Source: Litoreibacter halocynthiae (lineage in GTDB: Bacteria > Pseudomonadota > Alphaproteobacteria > Rhodobacterales > Rhodobacteraceae). Taken from it: a stretch of DNA of 64,000 bases. The notes under the pieces are model-generated. The model did no database searches, was not told the origin of the DNA, and saw nothing but the letters and a program-made list of their open reading frames with translations. Below are positions 13,005 through 52,921 of the stretch, piece after piece. The position numbers were made by a program, and so were the translations under genes. The first letter of the stretch is position 1; the number at the start of each line of letters is the position of its first letter. The DNA is taken from contig NZ_SOBH01000003.1 in NCBI RefSeq assembly GCF_004365635.1, forward strand, positions 434,001 to 498,000, written 5' to 3'.

Positions 13005-13007
13005 TGG

Positions 13008-13109
13008 TCAGCCCCCCAGCCAGATCATGAGACCCGTGAACGCAAAGATGCCGAGCAGGGCATACATGGCGACCTTGCCAGAGGTGCGCGGGTCTTTGGG
13101 TTCGTTCAC
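13008..13109 (-). CDS. 33-residue single-helix membrane peptide
   Basis: A small gene with a GTG start at 13109 that overlaps the pyrB stop by GTGA and ends with TGA at 13008. The product begins [20 protein letters not shown] and ends IWLGG. Its polar N-terminal dozen residues are followed by one transmembrane helix. It fills the space between pyrB and the next gene in the right strand, with overlap at one side and a three-base gap at the other. That spacing is the main evidence that it is real. Function unknown. Confidence 0.6.
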
Positions 13110-14062
13110 ACCATCACCCCTTGCTCTTGCGCTGCCTCGCGGCGGGTGCGGACCAGTAGCTCCATGGCGGCCATGCGGACGGCGACACCCATTTCGACCT
13201 GCTCCTGGATCACCGAGCGGTTTATGTCGTCGGCCAGCACACCGTCGATCTCGACGCCGCGGTTCATCGGGCCGGGATGCATGATGATGGCGTCGGATTT
13301 GGCGTGAGACAGCTTTTCGGGGTCAAGGCCGTAGCGGTGGTAATACTCGCGCTCGGACGGGATGAAACCGCCGTCCATGCGTTCTTTCTGGAGGCGCAGC
13401 ATCATCACCACGTCCACATCTTTCAGGCCTTCGCGCATGTCCTCGAACACCTCGACGCCGAACTCCTCCATGCCTGACGGCATCAGGGTCGGCGGGCCGA
13501 TCAGGCGCACGCGGTTTTCCATCTTGCCCAGCAGCAGGATGTTGGAGCGAGCGACGCGGCTATGGGCGATATCGCCGCAAATTGCGATGGACAGGCGATG
13601 CAACCGCTCCTTGGCGCGGCGAATAGTCAGGGCATCCAGCAACGCTTGCGTGGGATGTTCGTGCCGCCCGTCGCCAGCGTTCAGCACGGCGCAGTTGACC
13701 TTCTGGGCCAGCAAATCCACAGCACCCGAATGCGGGTGGCGCACGACCAGCAGGTCGGGGTGCATGGCGTTCAGCGTCAGGGCGGTGTCGATCAGGGTCT
13801 CGCCCTTTTTGACCGAGGACGCCTGCATCGCCATGTTCATCACATCCGCGCCAAGACGTTTGCCGGCGATCTCGAAACTGGCTTGCGTGCGGGTGGAGTT
13901 CTCGAAGAACATATTGATCTGGGTCAGCCCCGCCAGCGTGTCGGAATGCTTCACGTCGCGGCGGTTCAGGTCGACATACTGGTCGGCCAGATCAAGCAGG
14001 GTGGTGATTTCATCGGGGGCAAGATGTTCAATCCCTAGCAGATGCTTCGCGCGGAATGTCAT
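13106..14062 (-). CDS. pyrB: Aspartate carbamoyltransferase catalytic subunit
   Basis: A 318-residue enzyme condensing carbamoyl phosphate and aspartate to carbamoyl aspartate in pyrimidine synthesis. Key motifs are present: [13 protein letters not shown] (carbamoyl-phosphate loop), [14 protein letters not shown], and [12 protein letters not shown]. The C-terminal [12 protein letters not shown] is typical. It heads a minus-strand operon in which every junction overlaps or is nearly abutting, ending with plsY and a DUF805 gene. The downstream inactive dihydroorotase suggests a PyrB-PyrC' holoenzyme of the Pseudomonas type. Confidence 0.95.
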
Positions 14063-14176
14063 GGAGGCCCTCTCGTAATTTTATCGGGTTATAAGGGGGA
14101 GCGTTCAGTCGGGCAAGGCCACCCTGCGACGGTTATGCCATTGTGGGGCCAGTGCGGCCAGACTAGGTTTACCCCC

Positions 14177-14953
14177 ATGGAATCGGGACTGGACTTTCAT
14201 ACGGCCAAAGCGCTGTTGGACTGGCACGTGGACCTTGGCGCTGACGAGGCGATCGGGGACGTGCCGATCAACCGCTATGAGGTTCCCAAAGAAGCCCCGA
14301 AAGCCGCCAAGCCCGAACCTGCCGACGCCGCGCCGGTCGTGACGCAGCAAGGCCCCGACGCTGTGGGCATCGCTCGCCAGCTGGCCCAAGGCGCGCAAGA
14401 TCTGGACGGGCTGAAGGCTGCGATGGCGTCGTTCCCGCATTGCGACTTGAAAAACGGCGCCCGCAATCTTGTGTTCGGCGATGGTATCGCCGGTGCGCGG
14501 GTCATGATAATCGGCGAGGCCCCCGGCCGCGAAGAGGATCAGCAAGGCAAGCCTTTCGTTGGACCGGCTGGCCAGCTGCTGGACGCGATGTTTGCTGCCA
14601 TTGATCATGGTCGCGACCATGCAGAGAGCCCGATTTATATCACCAACGTCCTGCCGTGGCGTCCGCCGCAAAACCGCGACCCGAAGCCCGACGAAGTAGC
14701 GATGATGCTGCCGTTTCTGGAGCGTCACATCGCGCTCGCAAATCCGGATTTTCTGGTGTTGATGGGCAACCATTCCTGTCAGGCTTTGCTGGGGCGTAAA
14801 GGGATCACCAAAATGCGCGGCCAGTGGGACGAGGTGTTTGGCAAACCGGCGCTGCCAATGCTCCACCCTGCATATTTGCTGCGGATGCCCCATGCCAAAC
14901 GCGAGGCATGGGCCGATTTGTTAAGTCTAAAGGACAGGCTGCGCGGGCGATGA
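14177..14953 (+). CDS. Uracil-DNA glycosylase, family 4-like, lacking most Fe-S cysteines
   Basis: A 258-residue protein that removes uracil from DNA. Motif A reads GEAPGREEDQQGKPFVGPAG, motif B HPAYLLRMP, and YITNVLPWRPPQNRDP is the usual middle block. An Ala/Pro-rich linker precedes the domain. Family 4 enzymes bind a [4Fe-4S] cluster through four cysteines; here the corresponding positions read F..C, NVLPW and EVAMM, so only one of four remains. The start at 14177 was taken because the opposing pyrB gene and poor coding sequence lie upstream. Confidence 0.85.
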   Translation: MESGLDFHTAKALLDWHVDLGADEAIGDVPINRYEVPKEAPKAAKPEPADAAPVVTQQGPDAVGIARQLAQGAQDLDGLKAAMASFPHCDLKNGARNLVFGDGIAGARVMIIGEAPGREEDQQGKPFVGPAGQLLDAMFAAIDHGRDHAESPIYITNVLPWRPPQNRDPKPDEVAMMLPFLERHIALANPDFLVLMGNHSCQALLGRKGITKMRGQWDEVFGKPALPMLHPAYLLRMPHAKREAWADLLSLKDRLRGR

Positions 14954-37830: not shown

Positions 37831-38532
37831 ATGAGTCAAAAGATTACGACGATCGGTTTTGATGCGGACGACACGCTTTGGCAGAACGAGGAGTTCTTCC
37901 GGCTGACTCAAGACGTGTTTTACGACCTGTTGCGCGATTATGCCGACCCGGATCATCTGGCTGAACGGCTGTTGCGGTCCGAGCGGAAGAACCTTGGCCA
38001 ATACGGCTTTGGCATCAAGGGGTTCATGCTTTCGATGATCGAAACCGCAATTGAGGTCACGGATCAAAAGGTTCCGGTGTCAGTGATCCAGACGATTATT
38101 GAAGCCGGACAGGAGATGCTCAGCCACCCCGTTCACCTGTTGCCCCATGCGCGTGAGGTCGTGGAGGCGCTTGGGCAAGACTTCCGGCTGGTTCTGATCA
38201 CCAAGGGCGACTTGTTAGATCAGGAGAGAAAGCTCGCCCAGTCGGGGCTGGGCGAGATGTTCGACGCCGTAGAGATTGTCGCCGATAAAACACCAGAGAC
38301 CTATATCCGCGCGTTTATGCGCCACGGGCATGGGCCCGACCGCGCGATCATGGTGGGCAATTCGATGAAATCAGACGTGGTGCCCGCGATTGAGGCGGGC
38401 GGTTGGGGCATACACGTTCCTGCGAAGTTCGAGTGGGAAGTGGAGAGGGCGGAGGCACCGGTGGATCACCCGAGATTTCGGGTGATGAAGGATTTGGGCG
38501 AGCTTGAAGCGCTGGTCGCTCAGTTGGTCTGA
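37831..38532 (+). CDS. HAD-family hydrolase
   Basis: A 233-residue haloacid-dehalogenase-superfamily phosphatase. Motif I is GFDADDTLW, with two catalytic Asp; motif II is LVLITKGD, and motif III/IV lies around DKTPETY and [24 protein letters not shown]. The alpha-helical cap follows motif I. The substrate is not predictable. It is divergent from clpS and its last 13 bases overlap the end of the convergent FAD-dependent dehydrogenase gene. Confidence 0.88.
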
Positions 38533-39935
38533 GGCAAAACCTTTCCGGGGTTCATGATGTTGTCGGGGTCGATTGCGGCCTTCACTGACCGCATGACCGC
38601 CAACGCCACCTTGTCTTTGCGCCGTGCCATGGACGGTTTCTTGGTCAACCCGATCCCGTGCTCCGCCGAGAAACTGCCGCCCAGAGACAACACAACGTCT
38701 TCGACAGCTTCAGTCAGTATGTCGATATGCTGGGCGTCGTCCTTTGTCGGGAACAGCAGGAAGTGAATGTTGCCGTCACCGAGGTGGCTGACAGAAGAAT
38801 GCAATGCCTTCGGGTCCAGTTCTGCGAGCCGCGCGTCGATGTGTTCAAAGAAGTCGTCGACCTTGTCTACCGGCACGCAGATGTCGTTGTTGATCATCGT
38901 TTTTCGCAGCAACATGACCTCGCCCGCTGCTTCGCGCCGCTCCCACATCTCGCGCCGTTGGGCGTCGTTTTGGGCGACGACGGCATCGACGACACGACCG
39001 TCTTCCATCATTTGCCCTAAAGTGCCTTCTAACAACGTGACAAGCGGGATCGTGCCGTCGGGTTGCAGGTCAGTCATGTTCGGAGCGGTGGCGCCGACCT
39101 CGACCATGATGTTGATGTCGTGCTTGTCCTCAAACGGCGCGCGGGCTTTGGGGAACATGGTCAGGTGGTCGGCGATATACAACGCATCCATGTACTCGAA
39201 GGCCTCGACAAGACCACCGGTGGCGGCTTGTAGGTCGTTGAGCAGTCTAAGCGCGTCTGGAAAGGCGGGAACGGCGACCATTGCGGTGGCGTATGCCCGT
39301 GGTTTCGGGAACAGTTTCAAAACGGCCGAGGTGATGAGGCCAAGCGTACCTTCCGCGCCGATCATCAGGTTTTTCAGATCATAGCCGGAGTTATCTTTGT
39401 GCAGCTCGCTCATCAGGTTCATAATCTGGCCGTCGGGCAACACGACCTCCAGGCCAAGGCATAACCCACGTGTCGAGCCGTAGCGCACCACGTTGGACCC
39501 GCCGGCATTGGTGCTCAGCGCCCCGCCGATCATCGCGGAGCCTTTTGCACCGAAAGTCAGCGGAAAAACGAGATCATGCGCGTCGGCAGCATCGTGTATC
39601 GAAGACAGTACGGCGCCCGCGCCAACAATTGCGATACGGGCATCGGGGCGGATTTCGCGGATATCGTTCATGCGCTCCATAGAGATCATCACGGCGTCTT
39701 TGCCGTAGGTACCGCCAGCAAGGGACGTGTTGCCCGACACTGGAACGATCGCAGTTTTCGCTGCGGCGCAGATTTTGACGATGTCGCTGACATCTTGGGT
39801 GGAGACAGGGCGCACAACGGCAATCGGTGTGGCCTGATATTTGCCTGTCCAGTCGTGGTCATACTTCGCAGTTTCGGCGTCGGTCAAAACGTGGGTGTCA
39901 CCTACGATTTCGCGCAATTGGGTCAGCAGTGTCAT
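38520..39935 (-). CDS. FAD-linked oxidase, GlcD/D-2-hydroxyacid dehydrogenase type
   Basis: A 471-residue flavoprotein of the VAO/PCMH family. The FAD-binding domain shows VPVSGNTSLAGGTYGKDAVMISMERMN, and LTFGAKGSAMIGGALSTNAGGSNVVRYG; the C-terminal domain ends in HSSVSHLGDGNIHFLLFP and SAEHGIGLTKK. It most likely oxidises D-lactate or another D-2-hydroxyacid. GGAGG precedes the ATG at 39935. No glcE/glcF partners are adjacent. Confidence 0.85.
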   Translation of the reverse strand: MTLLTQLREIVGDTHVLTDAETAKYDHDWTGKYQATPIAVVRPVSTQDVSDIVKICAAAKTAIVPVSGNTSLAGGTYGKDAVMISMERMNDIREIRPDARIAIVGAGAVLSSIHDAADAHDLVFPLTFGAKGSAMIGGALSTNAGGSNVVRYGSTRGLCLGLEVVLPDGQIMNLMSELHKDNSGYDLKNLMIGAEGTLGLITSAVLKLFPKPRAYATAMVAVPAFPDALRLLNDLQAATGGLVEAFEYMDALYIADHLTMFPKARAPFEDKHDINIMVEVGATAPNMTDLQPDGTIPLVTLLEGTLGQMMEDGRVVDAVVAQNDAQRREMWERREAAGEVMLLRKTMINNDICVPVDKVDDFFEHIDARLAELDPKALHSSVSHLGDGNIHFLLFPTKDDAQHIDILTEAVEDVVLSLGGSFSAEHGIGLTKKPSMARRKDKVALAVMRSVKAAIDPDNIMNPGKVLPQTN

Positions 39936-40008
39936 GGGTTCCTCCGTCTTCGGTGCGAAGTTCCTCTGCGCTGGCGGTATTGGCAAGCCCCAAACCATCG
40001 ATTCCCGC

Positions 40009-40037
40009 TTGACCCCGTCGCCGCGTTTTCATATCCC
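40009..40037 (+). promoter_or_regulatory. Promoter of the CAU tRNA
   Basis: TTGACC (40009-40014) and TATCCC (40032-40037) are spaced by 17 bases; the tRNA 5' end lies 10 bases further. The -35 is near consensus and the -10 weak. Confidence 0.5.
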
Positions 40038-40046
40038 CCGCCCAGC

Positions 40047-40123
<77 letters not shown>

Positions 40124-40129
40124 AATAAG

Positions 40130-40163
40130 CCCGCGGATGCATGGATGCTTCCGCGGGTTTTTT
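40130..40163 (+). terminator. Rho-independent terminator of the tRNA
   Basis: CCCGCGGA and TCCGCGGG form an 8-bp stem with a 12-base loop, followed by TTTTTT, starting seven bases after the tRNA CCA end. Confidence 0.85.
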
Positions 40164-40170
40164 GTTGCGG

Positions 40171-41028
40171 CTAAAGGATGATCCGAGGCGCGGGAAGTCC
40201 GCGTAAATCTGTATCAACCGAAAACGTTTTGCCTGCATCCGGCTGGGCCTGCCGTTTTGTCGCGGACAAGCCCTGCTGTGCAGACGTCGCAAACAAGGTG
40301 GCCATATCCGGACCACCCAAGGCGGGACAGGTGATGTGGTCTGTGGGCATGTCATAGCTGCCTTGGAAGTCGCCGAATTTATTGTATCGCGCGACACGGG
40401 CCGCCCCCCACAAAGCGATAAGAACATCGCCATCCGCAGTGGTTATGGCTCCGTCGGGGTTCAACCCGTCCTGACTTAGGTCAAGGAACAGCTTTGGTGC
40501 TGCGCGCGGCCAACCTTTTGCATCCAGAGGGACACACATAACACGGGAATAGTAGGTGTCGGTGAAATACGCGACGGTGCCATCGGGTGAAAAGCAAATG
40601 GCGTTGGAAATGGTGATCGGCGCGAACAGACGACGCAATTCGCCTTTGTAAAAGCGATAGATTGCGCCGGATTCCAGTTCGGCCTGCTTGCCCATGGTGC
40701 CGATCCAGAAGCCCCCTTGTGGGTCCGCACGCCCGTCATTCGAGCGGGTGGCCGGATTGTCGGCTTCCAGATCGCAAAGCTTCGTTTTGACATGCGTGCC
40801 AAGATCGAAGCTGAACAAGGCGGTTTCGCTTGCAATAAAAAGCAGCGTTTCACTGATCCAGCCAAGGGCGGAGATATGTTCGTCGAACATCCATTCGGCG
40901 CCGTCGTCACATAGCAACCGACGCCCAATAATATCGCACCAGAAAAGCTTGTTTAGTTCGGGATGCCAGAAAGCTCCTTCGCCCAAAATGCAGGCGCGTT
41001 CATCGTGGACTTTTGTACTCATACTCAT
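40171..41028 (-). CDS. SMP-30/gluconolactonase family sugar lactonase
   Basis: A 285-residue six-bladed beta-propeller lactonase. Metal ligands are recognisable: the Glu in ILGEGAFWHP, the Asn in SNAICFSPDG and the Asp in LNPDGAITTADG. RSNDGRADPQGGFWIGTMG is the typical middle block. It would hydrolyse an aldonolactone made by a sugar dehydrogenase. The upstream gene on the same strand is a 2-dehydro-3-deoxygalactonokinase, so galactonolactone or a related lactone is plausible. Two in-frame ATGs start it (41028, 41022). Confidence 0.85.
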   Translation of the reverse strand: MSMSTKVHDERACILGEGAFWHPELNKLFWCDIIGRRLLCDDGAEWMFDEHISALGWISETLLFIASETALFSFDLGTHVKTKLCDLEADNPATRSNDGRADPQGGFWIGTMGKQAELESGAIYRFYKGELRRLFAPITISNAICFSPDGTVAYFTDTYYSRVMCVPLDAKGWPRAAPKLFLDLSQDGLNPDGAITTADGDVLIALWGAARVARYNKFGDFQGSYDMPTDHITCPALGGPDMATLFATSAQQGLSATKRQAQPDAGKTFSVDTDLRGLPAPRIIL

Positions 41029-41080
41029 ACCACATCATTTTTTTCGACCAGGGCGGTCGTGGTTTCTTACTCGTTCAAGT

Positions 41081-41989
41081 TTATCGCGTGAGCTCATTAT
41101 AGGCAGATGTGAGCCCTCGGAGGGTCGTCGCGTCCGCATCATGTACCGATGGCTCTACCCCTTGTGCCATGAGCGCCTTTTTATAGAGCGTGTTCAACGC
41201 TGGGGTCCCGATCAACGCCACTGGCTGACCCAGCCAGTAGGGCCGCGCCGCTGCCAACTCCAACCCCATCAAAATGCCAGACAGGCGCGCGCGTGAGATC
41301 GCAGGGTCCGCCCCGTGCAAAAGGTCGACAGCGCGAATTTTGAACAACTGGGTTGCAACGGCTTCCGGCCGGCTGATTGTATCTGCGATAGCGCCTGCGA
41401 ATGCCTCTTGATCAAGGGCGACGCCTTCTCCGATGGAGTGGCGCAACACGGAGTCCCGTCCCAGAAGATCGAACAGCTCCCCGGTCATGAAGGTCTGGAA
41501 GGAGACCACCTCGCCCGCGCTGATATGCGCCCATTTTGTGTGCGTTCCGGGAAGGCACAGGATGCCGTCAAAATCCGGTGCATCAGCTAGGTAGCCCGCA
41601 ATCTGGGTTTCCTCGCCTCGCATGACATCTGCCGAGCGCTCTTGCTTGAGACCGGGAAGGATATGCATGGCAATGCGGCTGTCTTTGCAGATAACGGCAT
41701 GTGATTGCCCGAGCGGTGTCGTTGGAACAGCGCGATAAGGTGCTTCTGCCCAGCCTTGGCGTGACCCCACCATGCCGCACGCAATCACCGGCGTGGTATC
41801 ACGCCCCAACCAAGGCGCGATATGAGACAGCAGCGTGACCTCAAATTCGTCAGGCGCAAGGTCTGACATGCCTTGATCGGACCCGTTCCGAGCCAAAACT
41901 TCACCATCCGAAGCCATAGCCCAAACCCGCAGGTTGGACGTGCCCCAATCGACTGCAATCCAGTCGGGATATGTGAGTTGGTTCGACAT
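41081..41989 (-). CDS. dgoK: 2-dehydro-3-deoxygalactonokinase
   Basis: A 302-residue sugar-acid kinase that phosphorylates 2-dehydro-3-deoxy-D-galactonate. Family blocks are IAVDWGTSNLRVWAM at the start (phosphate-binding), ACGMVGSRQGWAEAPY, VMRGEETQIAG and LCLPGTHTKWAHI. The start at 41989 was taken because the reading frame upstream does not look coding. The aldolase that normally follows is absent; the lactonase gene lies 52 bases downstream. The gene is divergent from an aldose 1-epimerase gene. Confidence 0.88.
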   Translation of the reverse strand: MSNQLTYPDWIAVDWGTSNLRVWAMASDGEVLARNGSDQGMSDLAPDEFEVTLLSHIAPWLGRDTTPVIACGMVGSRQGWAEAPYRAVPTTPLGQSHAVICKDSRIAMHILPGLKQERSADVMRGEETQIAGYLADAPDFDGILCLPGTHTKWAHISAGEVVSFQTFMTGELFDLLGRDSVLRHSIGEGVALDQEAFAGAIADTISRPEAVATQLFKIRAVDLLHGADPAISRARLSGILMGLELAAARPYWLGQPVALIGTPALNTLYKKALMAQGVEPSVHDADATTLRGLTSAYNELTR

Positions 41990-42177
41990 GTGGCGGTTAC
42001 TAGCACACTCTTGCCTGTGACCAAGCCCCGAGCGACACCAAACTGCGTGGTTATACTTAGCCAGAATTTGATCATTCCAGATCAGAACTGTTCTTGCAGG
42101 TTGGCGATTGGTCAGGTTGTGTGTACTGGGGCAGTCTTCGCAGCCTCTGAAGCCACAATGATTGTCGGGGTCACGCT

Positions 42178-43164
42178 TTGATTTTTGGAGAAATGCCAGA
42201 TGGCAGCGCGGTACTAAAGCACCGGATTTCAGGCGGTGGGCTTGTGGCCGATGTGCTGTCCTATGGTGCCGTGTTGCAGGACTTGCGGCTGGAGGGGCAC
42301 GAAGCCCCGCTTGTGTTGGGGTTCGAAAGCTTTGCGCCTTATCTGACTGATAGCCCCTATTTCGGGGCGATCGCAGGAAGATGCGCCAATCGCATCGGAA
42401 ACGGCACATTCGAGATCGACGGAAAGCCGTTTCAGGTGGACCGGAACTTTAATGCCCAACACCATCTGCATGGCGGGTCGGCGGGCGTCGGAAAACGCAA
42501 CTGGACGGTAGAACACGTCGGGCCGGACCGTGTAACGCTGCGGATTGATCTGGCAGATGGCGAAATGGGCTACCCGGGAAACATGGTGGCGCGATGCACC
42601 TACTCATGCTTGGTGGGCGGTATTTTCGACGTGAAGATCGAAGCCGAAACAGATGCCCCGACCTTGTGCAATTTCGCGCATCACAGTTATTGGAACTTGG
42701 ATGGTGGGCAAGATACGCGCGACCATGTCATGCAAGTTGACGCCGACCGCATGACAGTCGTGGATGATGGCTTCATTCCGACCGGAGAAAGTCGCGATGT
42801 GTCGGGGACGCGATACGATTTTCGCACTGAACGACCGATCCATGACAAGATGTTTATCGACCACAACCTGTGCCTGTCTGATGAACGGCAAACAATTCGC
42901 CGCATCGGGTCACTGAGATCGCTTGTGTCGGGAGTATCGATGGAGATGCGCTCGACGGAGCCGGGGCTGCAAGTATATGATGGCTTCAAGTTGTCGGTGA
43001 AGCCGACGGGGCTTGGTGGCCGCGTTTATGATGCCAATTCCGGCGTCGCGCTGGAGCCGCAGATCTGGCCCGACGCAATCAATCACGAAGGGTTTCCCAA
43101 CGCAGTGCTGCGTCCGGGAGAAACTTACAATCAACACACGCAATTCAAATTTACCAAGGGATAA
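42178..43164 (+). CDS. Aldose 1-epimerase
   Basis: A 328-residue GalM-type mutarotase that interconverts sugar anomers. Active-site blocks are FGAIAGRCANRIGNGTF, QHHLHGGSAGVGKRNW, CNFAHHSYWNLDG and the catalytic Glu region VALEPQIWPDAINHEGFPNAVL. A TTG start at 42178 is chosen because family members usually begin with an FG-x2-PDG segment; an ATG at 42193 would remove it and sits too close to GGAG. It starts 189 bases from the divergent dgoK start and is followed after six bases by an aldehyde dehydrogenase gene. Confidence 0.85.
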   Translation: MIFGEMPDGSAVLKHRISGGGLVADVLSYGAVLQDLRLEGHEAPLVLGFESFAPYLTDSPYFGAIAGRCANRIGNGTFEIDGKPFQVDRNFNAQHHLHGGSAGVGKRNWTVEHVGPDRVTLRIDLADGEMGYPGNMVARCTYSCLVGGIFDVKIEAETDAPTLCNFAHHSYWNLDGGQDTRDHVMQVDADRMTVVDDGFIPTGESRDVSGTRYDFRTERPIHDKMFIDHNLCLSDERQTIRRIGSLRSLVSGVSMEMRSTEPGLQVYDGFKLSVKPTGLGGRVYDANSGVALEPQIWPDAINHEGFPNAVLRPGETYNQHTQFKFTKG

Positions 43165-43170
43165 TCCGCT

Positions 43171-44613
43171 ATGAGCTATACGAAATACATGAAAGAGGCC
43201 AACTTCATCGGTGGTGAATGGATCGGTGCAGACAGCGGTGACACCATCGATGTGACCAATCCTGCAACGGGAGAGGTTATCGGCACTGTGCCTGCGTGCG
43301 GGGACGTGGAGACTCGCCGCGCCATCGATGCCGCTGCAGCTGCGTTTGACGGGCTGGCTGGCATGGCTCTGATGGAGCGCGTCGGAATGCTATGGAAGCT
43401 GCACGACGCTTTGATGGACAACCAGAAGACGCTGGCCGAGTTGCTGACCGTCGAGATGGGTAAACCACTGGCCGAGGCCATGGGCGAAATCGGCATCGGC
43501 GCGCAATATGTGCGCTGGTTTGCGGAGGAGGTCCGGCGCGCCAAGGGCGAAATCGTTCCAGCGCCGACGAATGGACGGCGCTTTTTGGTGACCAACCACC
43601 CGATTGGTGTCGTCGGTATGATTACGCCGTGGAATTTCCCGTCCTCGATGCTGGCGCGCAAGATTGCACCGGCACTGGCAGTTGGATGTACGGTGGTGGC
43701 AAAACCTGCAACCGCGACCCCGTATAGCGGATTGGCCTGGGGTGCGCTGGCCGAGGAAGCCGGCTATCCCAAGGGCTCCGTCAATATCGTGACGGGGTCC
43801 GCGCGCAAGATCGGCGGCGCGATCATGGACGACCCGCGCGTGCGCAAGGTGACCTTCACAGGCTCGACCGAAGTTGGCAAAGAGCTGATACGTCAGTCGG
43901 CGGATACGGTGAAAAAGGTCTCGATGGAGCTGGGTGGGAACGCTCCGTTCCTGGTGTTCGACGACGCGGATGTGGATGCGGCGGTGACAGGTGCGATGGT
44001 GTCCAAGTTCCGCAACTCGGGCCAGACCTGTGTCTGCGCGAACCGCATCTATGTGCAGTCGGGGGTCTATGACGCGTTCGTCTCAAAGCTGAAAACAGCC
44101 GTCGAAAAAATGAAGGTCGGCGATGGTCGGGAAGACGGCGTTGAGCAAGGGCCATTGATCGACATGGATGCGGTCGAAAAGGTCGAGGAATTCATCGCGG
44201 ATGCGACAGCCAAAGGTGGCAAGATTGTCACCGGCGGCGCGCGTCATGGAAACGGGCATAGCTTCTTCGAGCCGACAATTGTGACCGACGCCACACAGGA
44301 CATGAAATTCGCCAAAGAAGAAATCTTCGGGCCACTCGCGCCTGTTTTCCGCTTCACGGACGAAGACGACGCGATTGCGTGGGCCAATGATACCGAGTTC
44401 GGCTTGGCCTCTTACGCTTATACGCGCGACGTCGGGCGGATATTCAAGCTGAACGAGAAGCTGCAATACGGTATGATCGGCATCAACTCCGGCCTGATTA
44501 CCACCGTTGAAGCGCCGTTCGGCGGGGTGAAGGAAAGCGGCCTTGGGAAAGAGGGTGGCAGCCAAGGACTCGCCGACTATCTGGACGTCAAATACACGGC
44601 AGTCGATTTCTGA
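43171..44613 (+). CDS. NAD(P)-dependent (succinate-)semialdehyde dehydrogenase
   Basis: A 480-residue aldehyde dehydrogenase close to succinate-semialdehyde dehydrogenases. Motifs are PWNFPSSMLARKIAPALA, VTFTGSTEVGKELI, the catalytic Glu in VSMELGGNAPFLVFDDAD and catalytic Cys in NSGQTCVCANRIY. Oxidation of succinate semialdehyde or 2-oxoglutarate semialdehyde would both fit; the latter is common in oxidative pentose/aldarate routes and would suit the sugar-acid context. It is cotranscribed with galM and ends at a terminator. Confidence 0.88.
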   Translation: MSYTKYMKEANFIGGEWIGADSGDTIDVTNPATGEVIGTVPACGDVETRRAIDAAAAAFDGLAGMALMERVGMLWKLHDALMDNQKTLAELLTVEMGKPLAEAMGEIGIGAQYVRWFAEEVRRAKGEIVPAPTNGRRFLVTNHPIGVVGMITPWNFPSSMLARKIAPALAVGCTVVAKPATATPYSGLAWGALAEEAGYPKGSVNIVTGSARKIGGAIMDDPRVRKVTFTGSTEVGKELIRQSADTVKKVSMELGGNAPFLVFDDADVDAAVTGAMVSKFRNSGQTCVCANRIYVQSGVYDAFVSKLKTAVEKMKVGDGREDGVEQGPLIDMDAVEKVEEFIADATAKGGKIVTGGARHGNGHSFFEPTIVTDATQDMKFAKEEIFGPLAPVFRFTDEDDAIAWANDTEFGLASYAYTRDVGRIFKLNEKLQYGMIGINSGLITTVEAPFGGVKESGLGKEGGSQGLADYLDVKYTAVDF

Positions 44614-44617
44614 ACGG

Positions 44618-44638
44618 GGGCGCTTAGGCGCCCTTTTT
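44618..44638 (+). terminator. Rho-independent terminator after the aldehyde dehydrogenase
   Basis: GGGCGC and GCGCCC form a 6-bp stem with TTAG loop followed by TTTTT, five bases after the stop. It separates the sugar-acid operon from the M19-like operon. Confidence 0.8.
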
Positions 44639-44673: not shown

Positions 44674-45657
44674 GTGAAACCAGCTGTTATCGACAACCTG
44701 CAATATGTGAACTGGTCCGAGACCGCATTCCGCCAGCTTCGGATGGGTGGCGTCGACGCCATCCATGTCACCATCGCCTATCACGAGAGCTTCCGCGAGG
44801 CCGTTTTGAACGTCTCGCAATGGAACCGTTGGTTCGAGCAATATCCTGATCTGATCGTGCGCGGCACGTCGGGGGATTGCGTGCGCAAGGCCATCGAGGC
44901 GGGTCGCACGGCGGTGTTTTTCGGGTTTCAAAACCCGTCTCCGATTGAAGATGATATCGGCCTGATCGAGGTTTGGCACCAGCTTGGTATCCGGTTCATG
45001 CAACTGACCTACAACAACCAGTCGCTGCTCGCGACGGGGTGCTATGAGGACGACGACACCGGACTGACCCGCTTCGGGCGGCAAGCGGTGGACGAGATGA
45101 ACCGCGTGGGCTTGGTAATTGATATGAGCCATTCCGGCGACCGCTCGACGCTTGAGGCGATAGAGCATTCCAGCCGACCAATCGCGATCACCCATGCCAA
45201 TCCAAAATGGTGGCATAACGCGCTGCGCAACAAGTCGGACGAGGTGCTGAAAGCACTGACAGGGTCCGGCGGGATGCTTGGGTTTTCGATGTATCCGCAT
45301 CACTTGAAAGATGGAACAGACTGCACCCTCGACAGCTTTTGCGAGATGATCGCCGAAGCCGCCACGCGCTACGGCGTGGAAAATCTGGGGATCGGGTCGG
45401 ATCTGTGCCAAGATCAACCCGACAGCATTGTGACTTGGATGCGCAACGGTCGGTGGTCCAAGCAAATGGACTACGGCGAGGGATCCGCCGATCAGGCGGG
45501 CTTCCCACCTCAACCGGATTGGTTTGTCGACAATTGCGATATGCCGAACCTCAGTGCCGGACTGCTCGCAACGGGATTTTCCCAGCCCGAAGTTGACGCG
45601 ATCATGGGGGAGAACTGGTTGCGGTTTTACGATCAATCCTTCGGAGGTGAGGAATGA
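44674..45657 (+). CDS. M19 (renal dipeptidase) homologue with altered metal site
   Basis: A 327-residue protein of the membrane-dipeptidase fold, without signal peptide. It belongs to the subgroup with IDNLQYVNWSE at the N-terminus and FFGFQNPSPIEDD. In classical M19 enzymes those positions carry the HxD pair and the bridging Glu; here they are Asn-Leu-Gln and Gln. The later histidines are kept (VIDMSHSGDRST, ITHANPKWWHN), as is IGSDLCQDQPD. In Pseudomonas, members of this subgroup lie near glycine-betaine/dimethylglycine genes. GTG start. It heads a coupled operon with two genes of unknown function. Confidence 0.8.
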   Translation: MKPAVIDNLQYVNWSETAFRQLRMGGVDAIHVTIAYHESFREAVLNVSQWNRWFEQYPDLIVRGTSGDCVRKAIEAGRTAVFFGFQNPSPIEDDIGLIEVWHQLGIRFMQLTYNNQSLLATGCYEDDDTGLTRFGRQAVDEMNRVGLVIDMSHSGDRSTLEAIEHSSRPIAITHANPKWWHNALRNKSDEVLKALTGSGGMLGFSMYPHHLKDGTDCTLDSFCEMIAEAATRYGVENLGIGSDLCQDQPDSIVTWMRNGRWSKQMDYGEGSADQAGFPPQPDWFVDNCDMPNLSAGLLATGFSQPEVDAIMGENWLRFYDQSFGGEE

Positions 45658-47297
45658 CAATAGCCCTGCCACCACAAGAGCCGCTCCGCAGCCCTGACGA
45701 GGTGATGCGACTGGAGCGCATGGGCTCGATGTTTCCCACGCGGCTAAGTTTTTTGCGCTCGTTGACCAGACGCTTGAGTGCTGACCAGGCCGTCGTGACT
45801 CGCCCGGTTTGGCAGATCAACAAGGACGGGTTCGGTCATGCTGTCTATTCGCTGAGGCTGGGCGGGCATGTTTATTCCCTGATCGCGTTTTCCAACGAGC
45901 TGGACGCGGACCAACGGACGGACCGCGTCATTGCGCAAGCGTGGGATGCGGCATTCGTGTTGTATGATGGTGTGCCGGATGCCGCTGAAATCGAGCGCTT
46001 GAGGGAGAACGCCCCGAAACAGGAAGCCGGACGGTTCACCGAACGGGACTTGGTCCTGAGCCGTGCAAACAAGTCGGTGCGGTTGTTTGCCGAGGTGACC
46101 AAGGCGCTGCGCGAAGGCCGACAGCCTAACGCGGAGATGATCGGAGACATCGGGTATTTGATGCGCACGACAGCCGTATATGGAAATGGCAAATTTGGGA
46201 TAGCGGATAGGGATGTAATTGCCGACCGCCCCGGATTGGAAGGTCCGTTCGCCGCGGAAATGCTCACGGTTTGGCTGATCCGCGGTTTCACGCATGATCT
46301 TGTGGAACATGTCGGCGGTGCTGAACTCGACCGCGAGTTGAAACGGCACTTGGGGATTGGAAACTCTACCGGTCTTGGAATGGCACCCTTCCTGGTGTCC
46401 CATCCGGAATTGCTGAACAATTGGATGTTGGTGCGCGAGACCGCTCTGGCGCGGGTGCGTGCTGTGCCAATGCTACCACTGCCGCAACGCGAGAGGCTTC
46501 AACAGCTTGCCGCCCGCGCGACACAGCACCTGAGCCAATGGGATGTGCCCGACAGCGCGCAGCAGGCGCGCATCGAGCAGCTTCGACAGGATTGGGCGGA
46601 TCTGGCGGCGCAGTTGCCTGAGTTATTGGACCAGCCGAAACCACTGGATCAGCTGGTTCGTGTGTCCAAAGTGTTTACGCTGGAGTGTCAGGAACTGGTT
46701 GTGTCGCTCGTGATCGAGCCGTTCGGCGATCTGGTTGACGGGTTGACGGATTGTATGGGGGCCGCGGCCAGCGCACCGCTTGACCCGCGCACCGACGTTG
46801 CTGACTTGCGAACGGCACTTCAACGCGACTGCGTTTGGGCTTTGGAATACGACTTCGGCAACCCTCAAGAGGAAGCCCAGTTTTGGTATGTCAGCGAGGA
46901 GAAGCAGGAACCGCGCTTGGGGTCCAGATACGAGGAACCCGGCTGCGAGCTGGAAAGCCCGCTGGATATTGCACGACAGATGCAGGGCTTGGCGCGTGAT
47001 CTGGTTGGGGCTACGGGTGATCTGGCCGCATTCCTACGGGTGTTTCCGCAACATCGGAACGCAGCGTGTCGGGTCCAGCGGTTGGCGACATACCCCTATG
47101 CCGAAATACGCGAGAACCTGATTTGCGACCGCTGCAAACCGATTGATATGCTGCGCTGCAAGCTGGCGTTCTTTGGCGCGGCGAAATTCGATCCCAAATC
47201 GGACAGGTGGACCCGCATTACACTGGCGCAGGGTGCGCCGCTGTATGACGAGCTGGACGACGCGGATGATTGGTGGGTGCCGGTTTTCAAGCAATGA
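45654..47297 (+). CDS. 547-residue protein of unknown function
   Basis: I do not recognise this protein. It starts by ATGA overlap with the M19-like gene and ends by ATGA overlap with the DUF3726-like gene. No signal peptide or membrane helix is seen; it is soluble, largely helical after residue 100 (SRANKSVRLFAEVTKALREG, long Gln/Leu-rich stretch 270-350). Notable residues are a Trp-rich start (VVTRPVWQINKDGFGHAVYSL), a block around GNGKFGIADRDVIADRPGLE and a Cys-rich segment ENLICDRCKPIDMLRCKLAFF near residue 500. Coupling implies a shared task with its neighbours. Confidence 0.75.
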   Translation: MTIALPPQEPLRSPDEVMRLERMGSMFPTRLSFLRSLTRRLSADQAVVTRPVWQINKDGFGHAVYSLRLGGHVYSLIAFSNELDADQRTDRVIAQAWDAAFVLYDGVPDAAEIERLRENAPKQEAGRFTERDLVLSRANKSVRLFAEVTKALREGRQPNAEMIGDIGYLMRTTAVYGNGKFGIADRDVIADRPGLEGPFAAEMLTVWLIRGFTHDLVEHVGGAELDRELKRHLGIGNSTGLGMAPFLVSHPELLNNWMLVRETALARVRAVPMLPLPQRERLQQLAARATQHLSQWDVPDSAQQARIEQLRQDWADLAAQLPELLDQPKPLDQLVRVSKVFTLECQELVVSLVIEPFGDLVDGLTDCMGAAASAPLDPRTDVADLRTALQRDCVWALEYDFGNPQEEAQFWYVSEEKQEPRLGSRYEEPGCELESPLDIARQMQGLARDLVGATGDLAAFLRVFPQHRNAACRVQRLATYPYAEIRENLICDRCKPIDMLRCKLAFFGAAKFDPKSDRWTRITLAQGAPLYDELDDADDWWVPVFKQ

Positions 47298-47887
47298 GTT
47301 GGATTGATGCTTTCCTGGATGACGGTCCGGAATATCCGGCAGAACGACGCTCTGTCGCGGAAGTGCAGGCGTTGCTGCTGAAAGCGGGTTTGGGGGCAAA
47401 GCTCCCGTTGGGGCATTCTCAGGACGTCTCCGGCATGGCAGCGCTGTTGATGAGCGACCCGAAACTTTTTGCGATGGCGGCGGCGGCGCTGGAAGGTCCG
47501 CATGCCCCAGTGCGTTGTGAAGGTACGGCGGAGCATATGGTGATCGACGACGCGCGTATCGCAATGGCGGGGCCAGCACTGGCCGATGCTTTTGTTTGCG
47601 GAGCAAAACGCGTGGTGCTGCACGATCTGGACTGGCCACAACTGCTTTGGCCAGTCTTGGTAAGAACAGAACAGGTGTACGGTATTTCGCTGGCGATTGA
47701 TCGACCGGATGCGCGGACGATTATGGTCTCGACAGCGAAGCAAGGGTTAAAGCCACTGGGCCCTCCTCAACCGATTCCCCTGCTGCCGTTAGCGCGGTTG
47801 CAGGAACTTGCGGCGAAGACCTTCGTGCCATTCTCCGAGGCGTCTCGGCAGTCTGGTGCAGGGGCAGGGCTGCAAGACAACGACTAG
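47294..47887 (+). CDS. DUF3726-like protein
   Basis: A 197-residue soluble protein. The N-terminal VAEVQALLLKAGLGAKLPLGHSQD and the C-terminal signature PFSEASRQSGAGAGLQDND match my memory of DUF3726 proteins, whose function is unknown. The middle contains APVRCEGTAE and a DWPQLLWPVL segment. It is the third gene of the ATGA-coupled operon that begins with the M19-like gene. A HisD-family dehydrogenase follows after 117 bases. Confidence 0.6.
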   Translation: MSWIDAFLDDGPEYPAERRSVAEVQALLLKAGLGAKLPLGHSQDVSGMAALLMSDPKLFAMAAAALEGPHAPVRCEGTAEHMVIDDARIAMAGPALADAFVCGAKRVVLHDLDWPQLLWPVLVRTEQVYGISLAIDRPDARTIMVSTAKQGLKPLGPPQPIPLLPLARLQELAAKTFVPFSEASRQSGAGAGLQDND

Positions 47888-48004
47888 CAGAAACCATACC
47901 TTCGGGTTTCCTGAAAGTGCTGCCAAGACCCCGAATATGATTTGCGCCATCCGCCCGCGTACAACATGCCTTTTACACAAGGCTGTAACAGTGAGGACGT
48001 TCCG

Positions 48005-49312
48005 ATGAAGCATCTCAAGACCCCGCAAGTCGACAAGCTGGACTCGGATCGCAAGACCCGCGCTATTGTGGAAGGCATGCTCGCGAACATCCGCGAGAAC
48101 GGTGAAGAGGCTGTGCGCGGCTACGCCAAGGAACTAGATGGTTGGACGCAGGACTTCGCGCTATCGGACGAGAAGAAGGCGAAGCTGATCGCCCAAGTGT
48201 CCGATCAGGCGAAGGAGGATATTCAGTTCGCCCACACTCAGATCAAGCGCTTTGCCAAAGCGCAGCGCGAGAGCCTGACGGATTTCCAGATCGACACCGA
48301 GCCGGGGGTGACCCTTGGCCAGCGCTGCGTGCCTGTGGATTGCGCTGGCTGTTACGTGCCGGGTGGTCGCTATGCCCACGTGGCGTCCGCGCTGATGAGC
48401 GTTGCAACGGCCCGCGCGGCTGGTGTTCCGTTCGTTGTCGCGGCGTCGCCTCCGCGTGGCGATGCGATTGATCCCGCAGTGGCCTATGCGATGGATCTTG
48501 CTGGCGCTGACCTCATTCTGGAGATGGGAGGTGTACAGGCCGTTGCGTCTATGGCGATGGGCCTGTTCGGTGCGAAACCAGCCGATATTTTGGTCGGCCC
48601 GGGCAACGCGTTTGTGGCCGAGGCAAAGTTGCAGCTGTTTGGCGGCGTTGGCATCGACCTGTTCGCAGGACCCACCGAAAGCGCCGTTATTGCCGATGCG
48701 ACGGCTGACCCGATGACGGTGGCAATTGATTTGTTGTCACAGGCAGAGCACGGCACAACCTCGCCCGTTTGGTTGTTCACGACCTCGTCCGAACTGGCTG
48801 AAACGGTAAACCGTATCCTTCCGGTCATCGCGAAAGACTGGCCCACAGGCGAGGTCGCGGCGGAGGCTTGGGCCAATCACGGGGAAATCGTGATTTGCGA
48901 CGATCGCGAGCAAATGGCCGAGGTGTCGGACAGATACGCGTGCGAGCATTTGCAGGTGCAGGCCGAAGACCTTGAGTGGTGGAAGACGCGATTGCGCAAT
49001 TACGGGTCGTTGTTTCTGGGCGAAGGGTCCACCGTGACCCATGGCGACAAATGCTCTGGCACGAACCACATTTTGCCAACCCGTCAGGCTGCGCGGTATA
49101 CGGGTGGCTTGAACGTGATGAAGTTTCTGAAAATCCTGACTTGGCAGGAAATCCAGACTGACGCGGATCCGATGATGTCTTCGGTTGCCTCTCGCCTGTC
49201 GCGCACCGAAGGTATGGACGCCCATGCGCGAGCCTGTGATTGGCGCTTGCAGAAGTTCGGCAAGAAAGACGATTGGGGCTTCGAAGTCGCGTACCAGGAA
49301 CGCATAGAGTAG
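48005..49312 (+). CDS. HisD-family dehydrogenase, possibly sulfopropanediol 3-dehydrogenase (HpsN)
   Basis: A 435-residue NAD-dependent histidinol-dehydrogenase-fold enzyme. Zinc and catalytic positions are kept: Gln and His in LLSQAEHGTTSP, Glu-His in YACEHLQVQ, Asp in THGDKCSGTNHILPT and the His in EGMDAHARACDWRL. No other histidine genes are near. The GDKCSGTNH wording differs from ordinary HisD (GxYxAGPNH) and fits the catabolic HisD-like subgroup that includes HpsN, which oxidises 2,3-dihydroxypropane-1-sulfonate to sulfolactate. The sulfite oxidation genes at 51-56 kb would suit that role. Substrate assignment is tentative. Confidence 0.7.
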   Translation: MKHLKTPQVDKLDSDRKTRAIVEGMLANIRENGEEAVRGYAKELDGWTQDFALSDEKKAKLIAQVSDQAKEDIQFAHTQIKRFAKAQRESLTDFQIDTEPGVTLGQRCVPVDCAGCYVPGGRYAHVASALMSVATARAAGVPFVVAASPPRGDAIDPAVAYAMDLAGADLILEMGGVQAVASMAMGLFGAKPADILVGPGNAFVAEAKLQLFGGVGIDLFAGPTESAVIADATADPMTVAIDLLSQAEHGTTSPVWLFTTSSELAETVNRILPVIAKDWPTGEVAAEAWANHGEIVICDDREQMAEVSDRYACEHLQVQAEDLEWWKTRLRNYGSLFLGEGSTVTHGDKCSGTNHILPTRQAARYTGGLNVMKFLKILTWQEIQTDADPMMSSVASRLSRTEGMDAHARACDWRLQKFGKKDDWGFEVAYQERIE

Positions 49313-51220: not shown

Positions 51221-52096
51221 TCAGCGTTTGCCGTAGTAAAGACCCACGGTGTGCTCTGCCTCCGCGAAGAAAAGCCAGCGCAGTATGAGTGCGCCGCCGA
51301 TGTGCAGCAGTAGCGCCAGTAGCGATATCAGGTGGTAGAACGGCGGCATGACCAGCAGCAGGTAGGGCAGCAGGGACAGGCACAAAACGCCGATGATGCG
51401 CAGGGTGCGGGCGTGCTTGCGGCCAACCACGTGGACCATTTCCTTCATCAGGTAATTCTTGGAACTATGCGGGGCCTCGAACATTCGGACCGTGCCCATA
51501 TTGCCCAGTCCGGTAGCGGTCTCGATGGTGGAGCCGGAGGCCGAGAACAGCTTGTCGCCGATGATCCAGTACACACATTGAAACACGCCAAGCAAGAGCA
51601 GCATGGGGGCCGCGATCGACGTCTGGCCCGCCAGAAATGCGCCACCCGTCAATGCGTACAAGATGAACAGCACTGGTGTGGTCCAATGGTTCCACCGCGG
51701 CACGGTGGTGATCTGGGTGTAGATCATCGAGGTGCCGAACACGGTGGCAAGGCTTAGGGCCGCGCCGACCAGTCCAAGCAGGGTCCAGCGGGTGTCGAGG
51801 AAGACCACACCAATGGCATAGATCCCCATGACAGTCAGGGCCGCAACGGCCAAGCACCCTTCGCGCGACAACCAACTGCTGCGCCATTGTGAGAAGGCCT
51901 TGAGCGCCCGCCGGGGGTTGCCGAGGTGGAAGGTAGAGGAGACCAAGCCACCCACTGCGAACACATAGGCGATGAGGAAGAAAATGAACGCGGTGAAGCC
52001 CGAATAGTCAGGTTTGCCGAAGCCAAGGAATGTCAGCAGGCCAAAGCCCAACCCCGAGAAAACGGTGAAGAAGATAATGGAGGGAGCGGGGTGCAT
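51221..52096 (-). CDS. soeC: Sulfite dehydrogenase membrane anchor subunit (DmsC-like)
   Basis: A 291-residue polytopic protein with about eight transmembrane helices, of the DmsC anchor family. It starts MHPAPSIIFFTVFSGLGFGL and contains GLVSSTFHLGNPRRALKAF and RWNHWTTPVLF, which are usual for SoeC/DmsC proteins. It would anchor SoeAB at the cytoplasmic side and pass electrons to ubiquinone. Its ATG overlaps the soeB stop (TGATG). Last gene of the cluster. A DMSO reductase anchor is the alternative, but the xsc-pta context favours SoeC. Confidence 0.8.
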   Translation of the reverse strand: MHPAPSIIFFTVFSGLGFGLLTFLGFGKPDYSGFTAFIFFLIAYVFAVGGLVSSTFHLGNPRRALKAFSQWRSSWLSREGCLAVAALTVMGIYAIGVVFLDTRWTLLGLVGAALSLATVFGTSMIYTQITTVPRWNHWTTPVLFILYALTGGAFLAGQTSIAAPMLLLLGVFQCVYWIIGDKLFSASGSTIETATGLGNMGTVRMFEAPHSSKNYLMKEMVHVVGRKHARTLRIIGVLCLSLLPYLLLVMPPFYHLISLLALLLHIGGALILRWLFFAEAEHTVGLYYGKR

Positions 52097-52839
52097 CAGC
52101 CGATCCTTTCGAGCGTTTTATCGAGCCAGCCGAGGAAGCCTGTCGGCTCCTCCGCGACGGTCTCAAGGAAGGGGGCGAGGATGTCGATTTGGTCGTCCTT
52201 CGGGCGCGGCGGAAGGTATTTGTTGACGGGTTTCGTCCCAAGCTCTGGCATCAGGTCCATGCCACCGCGTTCGGCCACCAGTTTGGACACGTCGGAGGTC
52301 TCGTCGCCCAGATCGCCAAAGTGCCGTGCGCCTGCGGGGCAGGTGCGCACGCAGGCAGGTTCGCGGTCGATTTCCGGCAAGTTTTCGTTGTAGATACGGT
52401 CTACGCAGAGGGTGCATTTCTTCATCACGCCTTCGGCTCGATCCATCTCTCGCGCGCCATAGGGGCAGGCCCATGCGCAGAGGCCGCAGCCGATGCAGTC
52501 GCTCTCGTTGACCAGCACGATGCCGTCTTCCACACGCTTGTAGCTGGCGCCTGTGGGGCAGACCGTGACGCAGGGTGCATCTTCGCAGTGCAGGCAGGAT
52601 TTGGGGAAGTGGACGGTCATCGCGGCGCCCTCATCCGGCGTCACCTCGTAGGAGTGCACACGGTTCAGGAAGGTGCCGGAGGGGTCCGCGCCATAGGGGT
52701 TCTGGTCCGACAATGGCGCGCCGTAGTTTTCGGTGTTCCAGCCTTTGCAGGAGATCACGCAAGCATGGCAACCGACGCATGTGTCGAGGTCGATCACAAG
52801 GCCCAGCTTCTTTTCGGTGTGGGTCGGGAGTTGGGTCAT
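52096..52839 (-). CDS. soeB: Sulfite dehydrogenase iron-sulfur subunit
   Basis: A 247-residue ferredoxin-type subunit with four cysteine clusters: CVGCHACVISC near residue 22, CLHCEDAPCVTVCP near 80, CIGCGLCAWACP near 113, and CTLC with CVRTCP near 140-170. It relays electrons from the molybdenum subunit to the anchor. The start at 52839 (MTQLPTHTEKKLG) was chosen. Between it and soeA lie 82 bases with a perfect inverted repeat, unlike the tight spacing elsewhere in the cluster. Confidence 0.83.
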   Translation of the reverse strand: MTQLPTHTEKKLGLVIDLDTCVGCHACVISCKGWNTENYGAPLSDQNPYGADPSGTFLNRVHSYEVTPDEGAAMTVHFPKSCLHCEDAPCVTVCPTGASYKRVEDGIVLVNESDCIGCGLCAWACPYGAREMDRAEGVMKKCTLCVDRIYNENLPEIDREPACVRTCPAGARHFGDLGDETSDVSKLVAERGGMDLMPELGTKPVNKYLPPRPKDDQIDILAPFLETVAEEPTGFLGWLDKTLERIG

Positions 52840-52860
52840 TTCAGGCCCTTTCCGGCTGTC

Positions 52861-52884
52861 GGCAATGCGTCGGCATTGCGTCGG
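52861..52884. repeat. Inverted repeat between soeA and soeB; shared 18-base sequence
   Basis: The stretch contains GCAATGC-GTCG-GCATTGC, a perfect 7-base inverted repeat. GCGTCGGCATTGCGTCGG (52867-52884) recurs exactly at 60388-60405 upstream of tauR. It could be an mRNA processing or stabilising hairpin in the soe transcript, or a small dispersed repeat. Confidence 0.5.
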
Positions 52885-52921
52885 ATTTCTGTATGGCACC
52901 TAAAACGATCAGGAATAGCGG

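Follow-up and report, generated by a model that had tools for sequence, protein, structure and literature searches.

A conserved three-gene unit in Litoreibacter halocynthiae, with an altered M19-family protein, an uncharacterised 547-residue protein and a DUF3726-like protein, and its probable kinship with operons for N-methyl-heterocycle catabolism

Background

Homarine (N-methylpicolinate) is an osmolyte of phytoplankton; according to the excerpted text of PMC12817926, its uptake by R. pomeroyi occurs within hours. Excerpts of PMC13390433 assign Mgd a part in the catabolism of homarine, with reference to Ferrer-Gonzalez et al. 2026 (Nat Microbiol), and place the AraC-type gene tmaR of R. 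pomeroyi between dmmDABC and mgdABCD. Further background on homarine, stachydrine or mgdC is found in parts of PMC9038784, PMC9723723, PMC12817926, PMC12239276 and PMC10041152. In dimethylglycine catabolism, as described in the available part of PMC12093977, the dgcAB genes of Vibrio natriegens and P. aeruginosa come after pepD (a predicted dipeptidase gene of a family that is unstated there) and a gene for a hypothetical protein. Here we analyse a three-gene unit, hereafter the trio, that encodes an M19-family protein (M19), an uncharacterised protein of 547 residues (U547) and a DUF3726-like protein. It lies in a 64,000-nucleotide stretch of the Litoreibacter halocynthiae genome (assembly GCF_004365635.1, contig NZ_SOBH01000003.1, positions 434,001 to 498,000), the whole of which we call the window.

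Of 120 genomes sampled from a single family rich in marine members, 54 have both M19 and U547, yet we found neither a described function nor a relative of solved structure for two of the trio's proteins. We propose that in many relatives the trio is, with reasonable probability, the enzyme core of N-methyl-heterocycle catabolism, acting most likely on homarine or close kin, that the window copy is a stand-alone one, and that the HpsN-like dehydrogenase gene behind it is unrelated. Our literature searches (homarine with dipeptidase, and related terms) found no paper giving a homarine gene list, and a search on DUF3726 found no paper.

Results

The trio is conserved as a unit

The source genome (G000) is 3.68 Mb in size and the trio lies on its contig C3. 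The core genes are as follows, in positions of the window:

44674..45657, + strand: M19-family protein, core gene 1; GTG start, 327 residues; PF01244 at E 3.5e-71
45654..47297, + strand: U547, uncharacterised protein, core gene 2; 547 residues; supported by a homologue alignment and by the gene fusion in locus L116
47294..47887, + strand: DUF3726-like small protein, core gene 3; 197 residues from ATG; supported by a profile match and an AlphaFold2 (AF2) model

Both the M19/U547 and the U547/DUF3726-like junctions are ATGA overlaps; an alternative open reading frame of 205 residues for the third gene runs from 47270 via an earlier TTG. A first-pass annotation of this DNA had drawn a module of four genes by adding the dehydrogenase gene that begins 117 bases after the DUF3726-like stop. 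All four genes, their positions, the overlaps and the gap are confirmed on the + strand. The boundary itself has to be moved: the module has three genes, and the HpsN-like gene is distributed independently of them.

M19 (called at E<=1e-60) and U547 (E<=0.001) were scored in the 120 family genomes, where DUF3726 was left uncounted. Each of the two proteins is present in 55 genomes, both in 54 and neither in 64, a concordance of 118/120 (Fisher p 5.6e-32, phylogeny uncontrolled). The discordant genomes are G543, with U547 only as a weak match of 77 residues, and G022, with M19 only. By printed coordinates the pair lies within 5 kb in 51 of the 54 genomes, the exceptions being G024, G492 and G537. 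Among 12 relatives from a contig scan, M19 adjoins U547 in every case and eight have a DUF3726-like gene, to which a C-terminal match in L011 can be added; the contigs of L010, L012 and L013 stop inside U547 or shortly behind it. When 64 mapped loci of 8 kb or more were searched by tblastn, M19 was found in 59 and missed in L080, L092, L099, L100 and L119, and the genomes of the first four (G378, G024, G021 and G014, respectively) have a trio-type M19 elsewhere.

At positions 11968-14412 of a Mesorhizobium plasmid record (L116), U547 and DUF3726 are fused in one frame of 814 residues that is annotated just as a DUF3726 protein; no further fusion of the two was seen among the mapped loci. The fusion and the co-occurrence of M19 with U547 are the firm parts of our reading and bear out the earlier view that genes one to three belong together as a unit of uncharacterised chemistry. 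M19, U547 and DUF3726 are a conserved unit that is close to obligate, within which U547 and DUF3726 most likely make up a single enzyme as its two subunits.

Operons of relatives that contain the trio

The trio is present in many marine and soil bacteria, and often lies inside operons whose role seems to be the breakdown of homarine-like nitrogen compounds. Annotated plasmid operons have the order LysR, aldehyde dehydrogenase (ALDH), M19, U547, DUF3726 and Ldh, with betaine ABC or BCCT transporters. In their annotation M19 is a membrane dipeptidase, U547 a hypothetical protein and Ldh an Ldh family oxidoreductase. The L116 record has the same operon genes with a different ABC type, and two plasmid records hold a variant without Ldh. 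Phaeobacter inhibens DSM 17395 and Ruegeria sp. TM1040 are among the carriers of the operon types described here. The operon ALDH (E<=1e-200) occurs in 23 of the 120 family genomes, all of them U547-positive, in each case at most 5 kb from U547 by printed coordinates. In NCBIfam it scores best, below the cut-off in each case, with the models for 2,5-dioxovalerate dehydrogenase and alpha-ketoglutaric semialdehyde dehydrogenase, and the best PDB match of the operon Ldh is 1wtj, a delta1-piperideine-2-carboxylate reductase (193 bits).

A second arrangement, type b (L117, L120, L122 and L090), combines an IclR regulator with a distant U547, M19, an ABC transporter and a DUF3726-like protein whose tail is of another kind, and RidA lies near it in L090, L120 and L122. 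Sinorhizobium accounts for 64 of the 168 plasmid records with a U547 match; its records listed at about 29% identity are probably type b, L117 being the only one mapped.

Other genes for methylated compounds stand near some operons. L114 has a dimethylsulfoniopropionate (DMSP) demethylase gene adjoining, an ABC set, its type not given, some kb upstream and, 10 kb away, a gene for an NADH:flavin oxidoreductase, an enzyme type that includes some demethylases. In L116 a gene of the trimethylamine methyltransferase family lies 7 kb upstream. A sarcosine-oxidase-family subunit set with an AraC-type regulator stands beside the operon in L115, L121 and L123 (the L121 stretch shows three subunits, with one beyond it). 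We read this set as Mgd (N-methylglutamate dehydrogenase) because its layout matches that of tmaR and mgdABCD in R. pomeroyi, as given in the excerpts of PMC13390433. In L166 a relative of the set is accompanied by the same kind of regulator, as judged by tblastn, and by two further genes, one like a haem-dependent oxidative N-demethylase and one like GcvT. The layout of L163, again judged by tblastn, is similar, and its AraC-type regulator was confirmed.

M19 has an altered metal site

The window protein belongs to the M19 fold family by its match to Pfam M19 (PF01244), with 240 bits against a cut-off of 26 over profile positions 30-317 of 319. Its best PDB match is 2i5g, an 'amidohydrolase' (211.6 bits). 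We compared site residues in 65 non-identical M19 proteins from the mapped loci, taking the HxD and the bridging Glu of the binuclear metal site to be those at the renal dipeptidase positions. In all 65 the N-terminal HxD has become LxY (LxC in two of them) and the bridging Glu has become Gln; both His, the Arg and the Asp of the site are retained throughout. The changed metal site noticed in the single protein is therefore general to the set, and these proteins lack the N-terminal HxD and bridging Glu expected of an active dipeptidase. The Gln is also present in 2i5g and is therefore a trait of a wider M19 subgroup.

U547 and its phylogeny

As first supposed, U547 is a protein without known function: nothing in Pfam or NCBIfam matches it at E 0.001 (one Pfam match stands at E 1.9), and nothing in the PDB does so at E 1. 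Six divergent U547 proteins searched against Pfam at E up to 1 gave a single weak match (E 0.042). Across 75 homologues the conserved residues include many Arg, Trp, Tyr and Glu, with an Arg-rich set, and U547 is the probable large catalytic subunit. We claim no fold for it, since an AF2 model from nine sequences only reached a pLDDT of 60.2 and its best Foldseek match had an E of 1.1.

In a tree of 75 U547 proteins the window protein belongs to a clade of 23 rows (support 100/99) made up of Litoreibacter and several further roseobacters. This clade adjoins rhizobial and Roseateles plasmid operons by a branch of 91/78, which is not strong. The closest protein among the matches listed in the contig scan is from Litoreibacter ascidiaceicola (96% identity), and relatives are also found on plasmids of rhizobia, Vibrio and one haloarchaeon. 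Ten neighbours of three loci of the window-type clade (L074, L075 and L092) were checked and include no shared partner. Seven genomes have two U547 loci (G011, G014, G021, G142, G158, G242 and G378), one of the two being of window type in G011, G014, G142 and G158; a single trio-type M19 accompanies both loci in G014, G021, G378 and G158. As a separate observation, L011 and L012 are M19-U547 pairs on contigs binned as Acidimicrobiales whose U547 is 55-58% identical to that of the window, which reflects either transfer or mis-binning.

The DUF3726-like protein

The window protein (197 residues) does not match PF12525 even at E 10; relatives from L115, L113 and L123 match it directly. In a profile comparison, the window alignment matched the DUF3726 proteins of related operons at prob 99.4 and E 2.8e-21. 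That set holds the PF12525 matchers, and the window protein is therefore a diverged DUF3726 relative, so that its original label was correct.

Searching Foldseek with its AF2 model (pLDDT 87.9), we found Ldh_2 dehydrogenases in 23 of the best 24 rows, which represent chains from about 13 proteins, all of them matched by the Ldh protein of the operon as well; the best E is 8.8e-4, the sole row below 0.001, with TMq 0.33-0.44. By this model the protein resembles an Ldh_2 fold reduced in size, to which a conserved tail is added at the C terminus. A comparison of the DUF3726 set with the Ldh set gave prob 72 and E 3.4e-5 over 54 columns at the N terminus, with an Ldh set that included the archaeal protein P0008, perhaps itself a DUF3726 relative. 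The window DUF3726-like set had no match to the Ldh set (prob 0.3). P0008 matches PF02615 at E 4.8e-9, below the gathering score, and has no PDB match.

The tail, SRxxGAGAGxxDND, is well conserved in the main types and is the best-conserved part of an otherwise variable protein. Downstream of U547, 44 of 64 loci have the full SRxxGAGAGxxD and another 14 have part of it. It was not found in L013, where the sequence ends too early, in L088, or in the type-b loci L090, L117, L120 and L122, which have a differing tail. On a haloarchaeal plasmid (L119:10097-12627), a U547 relative is followed by a protein of 317 residues with an Ldh_2-like N-terminal part and a DUF3726-like tail, and then by a BCCT transporter; this protein is a possible evolutionary link between Ldh_2 and DUF3726.

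The HpsN-like neighbour

The gene that follows the trio is:

48005..49312, + strand: HpsN-like dehydrogenase, neighbour outside the core; 435 residues from ATG; PF00815 at E 4.9e-128

An alternative TTG start is possible at 47942. Its product scores 488 bits against PDB 8v35, a sulfopropanediol 3-dehydrogenase, and 435 against 8wwe, an (R)-dihydroxypropanesulfonate (DHPS) dehydrogenase, compared with 222 bits for the best HisD in the PDB. This bit-score comparison agrees with the earlier suspicion of an HpsN-like and not a biosynthetic HisD protein. Among the three HisD-family matches of the window genome it is the best HpsN candidate: the protein at C1:334484 scores 513 bits to HisD and 237 to 8v35, and the paralogue at C2:42008 scores 376 to 8v35. 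The stretch C2:33001-52000 (L172) holds a second HpsN-like gene, 48% identical to the window protein.

The first-pass annotation had further proposed that the trio encodes accessory factors of DHPS catabolism, and had asked whether the genes occur independently in related genomes. For HpsN they do. An orthologue (78% identity or more) is present in 14 of 21 genomes of the genus, and window-type U547 in 19, of which G010 and G019 have the locus cut by contig ends; HpsN stands beside the trio in 12 of the 17 that can be assessed. In the other five (G011, G015, G016, G018 and G020) the best HisD-family match is 53% or less. Conversely, G007 and G013 have HpsN without window-type U547. G013 has only an operon-type U547, and in G007 (L167) M19 and U547 are gone and a DUF3726-like remnant (173/197 residues aligned) is left between the upstream aldehyde dehydrogenase gene and HpsN. 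Outside the genus, HpsN is absent from the window-type loci of six genomes (L044-L049, which are short; for four of these genomes a 20-kb locus, L073-L076, was covered as well), and none was found in the mapped LysR operon loci. In one Litoreibacter, at L006:12279-13979, a gene for an ABC-type permease of 566 residues comes directly after the trio, where the window has HpsN. HpsN is thus a frequent neighbour in one genus, unrelated to the trio, and it lies outside the module because of its independent distribution.

Surroundings of the trio in the window

Further features profiled around the trio are:

43171..44613, + strand: SSADH-like aldehyde dehydrogenase, upstream neighbour; best NCBIfam models SSADH, both below cut-off
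44616..44635, + strand: terminator-like hairpin between the upstream aldehyde dehydrogenase and the M19 gene; 8-pair stem, T run, -17.5 kcal/mol fold
51221-52096, opposite strand to the trio: DmsC-type anchor (soeABC-like); profile-tested
52096-52899, opposite strand to the trio: 4Fe-4S protein (soeABC-like); profile-tested

The upstream aldehyde dehydrogenase was considered as a module member and dropped: it is 32% identical to the operon ALDH, the hairpin lies between, and a sugar-type cluster adjoins. It comes after an aldose epimerase gene both in the window and in L006. The region 38520-44613 is a sugar-type catabolic cluster of FAD-linked oxidase, SMP-30 lactonase, 2-keto-3-deoxy-galactonokinase (DGOK), aldose epimerase and the SSADH-like dehydrogenase. 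As a boundary upstream of the core the hairpin is supportive only, terminator-like sites being no more frequent across the region than in shuffled sequence (5 found against 5.2 expected). The soeABC genes expected some 2 kb away were found as soeABC-like genes beginning 1.9 kb downstream on the opposite strand, a call that covers two of the three reading frames, the other being one of 938 residues.

Discussion

Proposed role of the trio

We infer the substrate, the order of steps and every catalytic assignment from family and context. On this proposal the betaine transporter would import a quaternary or N-methylated ring compound, and U547 and DUF3726, as one enzyme, would attack the activated N-methyl ring (or betaine). 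M19, shared by two U547/DUF3726 pairs in some genomes, would then hydrolyse a C-N bond of the opened product. Ldh, a relative of delta1-piperideine-2-carboxylate reductase, or RidA may handle imine intermediates, ALDH, a relative of alpha-ketoglutarate semialdehyde dehydrogenase, would form the acid, and Mgd would strip the N-methyl group from N-methylglutamate. A more specific picture, which we put forward tentatively and think unlikely to be right in all its parts, is that U547 and DUF3726 make up a new enzyme of two subunits, capable of opening N-methylated aromatic rings with no oxygenase involved. Its small subunit would be a truncated dehydrogenase whose SRxxGAGAGxxDND tail enters the active site of the large one, and the metal-site-altered M19 would complete the reaction, in some cells for two enzymes, with the Litoreibacter-type copy working on a non-homarine substrate.

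The link to homarine was addressed by counting Mgd-class genes in the family sample, the class being 60% identity or more at E<=1e-300, a threshold set after the list had been seen and one that the L123 protein, at only 53% identity, would fail. Mgd-class genes occur in 22 of 55 U547-positive and 11 of 65 U547-negative genomes (p 0.007), and in 13 of 23 genomes with the operon ALDH as compared to 20 of 97 without it (p 0.0013), phylogeny being uncontrolled in both cases.

Several observations, like the choice of threshold, weigh against the homarine proposal. The 14 window-type genomes (those with a profile score above 730 bits) have no association with the Mgd class (4/14 compared to 29/106 of the others, p 1). 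Apart from the three plasmid loci, just four of the 55 genomes (G174, G521, G535 and G552) have an Mgd-class gene at a distance of up to about 7 kb from U547. The subunit set itself matches only the sarcosine oxidase family in NCBIfam, its reading as Mgd resting on layout, and in L161 and L162, of the same class, this layout is not clearly shown. Our comparison uses the gene set seen here in plasmid records; homABCDER (five genes and a regulator) is reportedly the name of the homarine operon. The existence of several operon types, Ldh-less and IclR type b, suggests several substrates. Since in three genomes (G011, G142 and G242) both U547 loci come with an M19 of their own, sharing of M19 is not a rule. 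In the window genome, finally, the best matches to the operon ALDH (37%) and Ldh (42%) are no clear orthologues, and the best match to the Mgd-class alpha subunit (54%) belongs to a sarcosine-oxidase-like set by dnaG/rpoD. Lacking clear orthologues of these partners, the genome cannot run the full operon as inferred. The window copy is best described, from its gene content and clade, as a stand-alone, separately diverged core of the same kind and is not filed as a homarine operon; it would have to use a related substrate, possibly different from homarine, or general partners.

Alternative explanations

We consider it rather unlikely that the homarine link is accidental and that the substrate of the trio is a different betaine or N-methylated amino acid, such as stachydrine, trigonelline, dimethylglycine or glycine betaine. 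The generic betaine types of the transporters would fit this, as would the differences between operon types in regulator (LysR, IclR) and end genes (RidA, Ldh, BCCT), the pepD-hypothetical pair before dgcAB in the available part of PMC12093977, the DMSP demethylase and NADH:flavin oxidoreductase genes of L114 and the trimethylamine methyltransferase-family gene of L116. Otherwise the annotated plasmid neighbourhoods, whose gene tables are incomplete, name no Rieske oxygenase, dgcAB or stachydrine demethylase, and both the Mgd-type neighbours and the piperideine-carboxylate-reductase relative better fit a six-membered N-heterocycle. The role of M19 could also be a different one. It is improbable that M19 serves in maturation or processing by acting on, or holding, the C-terminal tail of DUF3726, the trio then being one enzyme with a built-in activation step. 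The tail is what varies least in that protein, M19 tracks U547 nearly perfectly, and one M19 can accompany two pairs; a shared hydrolysis step explains the same pattern, and the genomes with M19 at each locus speak against a common processing partner. We know of no peptide cleavage site or modified residue in the DUF3726 tail.

A role of the unit in peptide use, with M19 as a dipeptidase of the usual kind, is very improbable. Membership of the Pfam family and the retained two His, Arg and Asp are what such an enzyme would have, yet the metal-binding positions, as we take them to be, are changed in 65/65 proteins, and the named operon partners are dehydrogenases and betaine transporters. Hardly credible is the idea of DHPS accessory factors tied to HpsN, with which the HpsN-like nature of the window dehydrogenase, the shared direction, the 117-base gap and the frequent adjacency within the genus would agree. 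There is no conserved association of trio and hpsN: each occurs without the other within the genus, G007 has kept HpsN after losing M19 and U547, and HpsN is missing from window-type loci of the six other-genus genomes and from all mapped LysR operon loci.

If the trio does open N-methylated rings, it would provide the enzyme mechanism behind homarine turnover and a marker pair for that capacity in genomes. The DUF3726 tail and the L116 fusion are direct, testable handles.

Comparison with known systems

HpsN, sulfopropanediol 3-dehydrogenase, is the nearest solved structure to the product of 48005-49312, but that gene lies outside the trio. The pepD-hypothetical-dgcAB cluster of dimethylglycine catabolism (PMC12093977, seen in excerpt) resembles the trio, by description only, in having a predicted dipeptidase gene beside a hypothetical gene, like M19/U547; dgcAB was not seen beside the trio. 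The Ldh_2 family (delta1-piperideine-2-carboxylate reductase, ureidoglycolate and malate dehydrogenases) has the fold that Foldseek suggests for the DUF3726-like model, which differs in its length of about 200 residues against 340 and in having its own conserved C-terminal tail. Compared with a homarine-type operon, in which LysR, ALDH, M19, U547, DUF3726 and Ldh make the full set, the window has M19, U547 and DUF3726 only, without an adjoining LysR, operon ALDH, Ldh or transporter, and its U547 belongs to a different clade. The operons of the relatives are probably like the homarine pathway (Ferrer-Gonzalez et al. 2026, known to us through excerpts citing it) in having LysR with five enzyme genes, Mgd-type neighbours, and roseobacter and other proteobacterial hosts.

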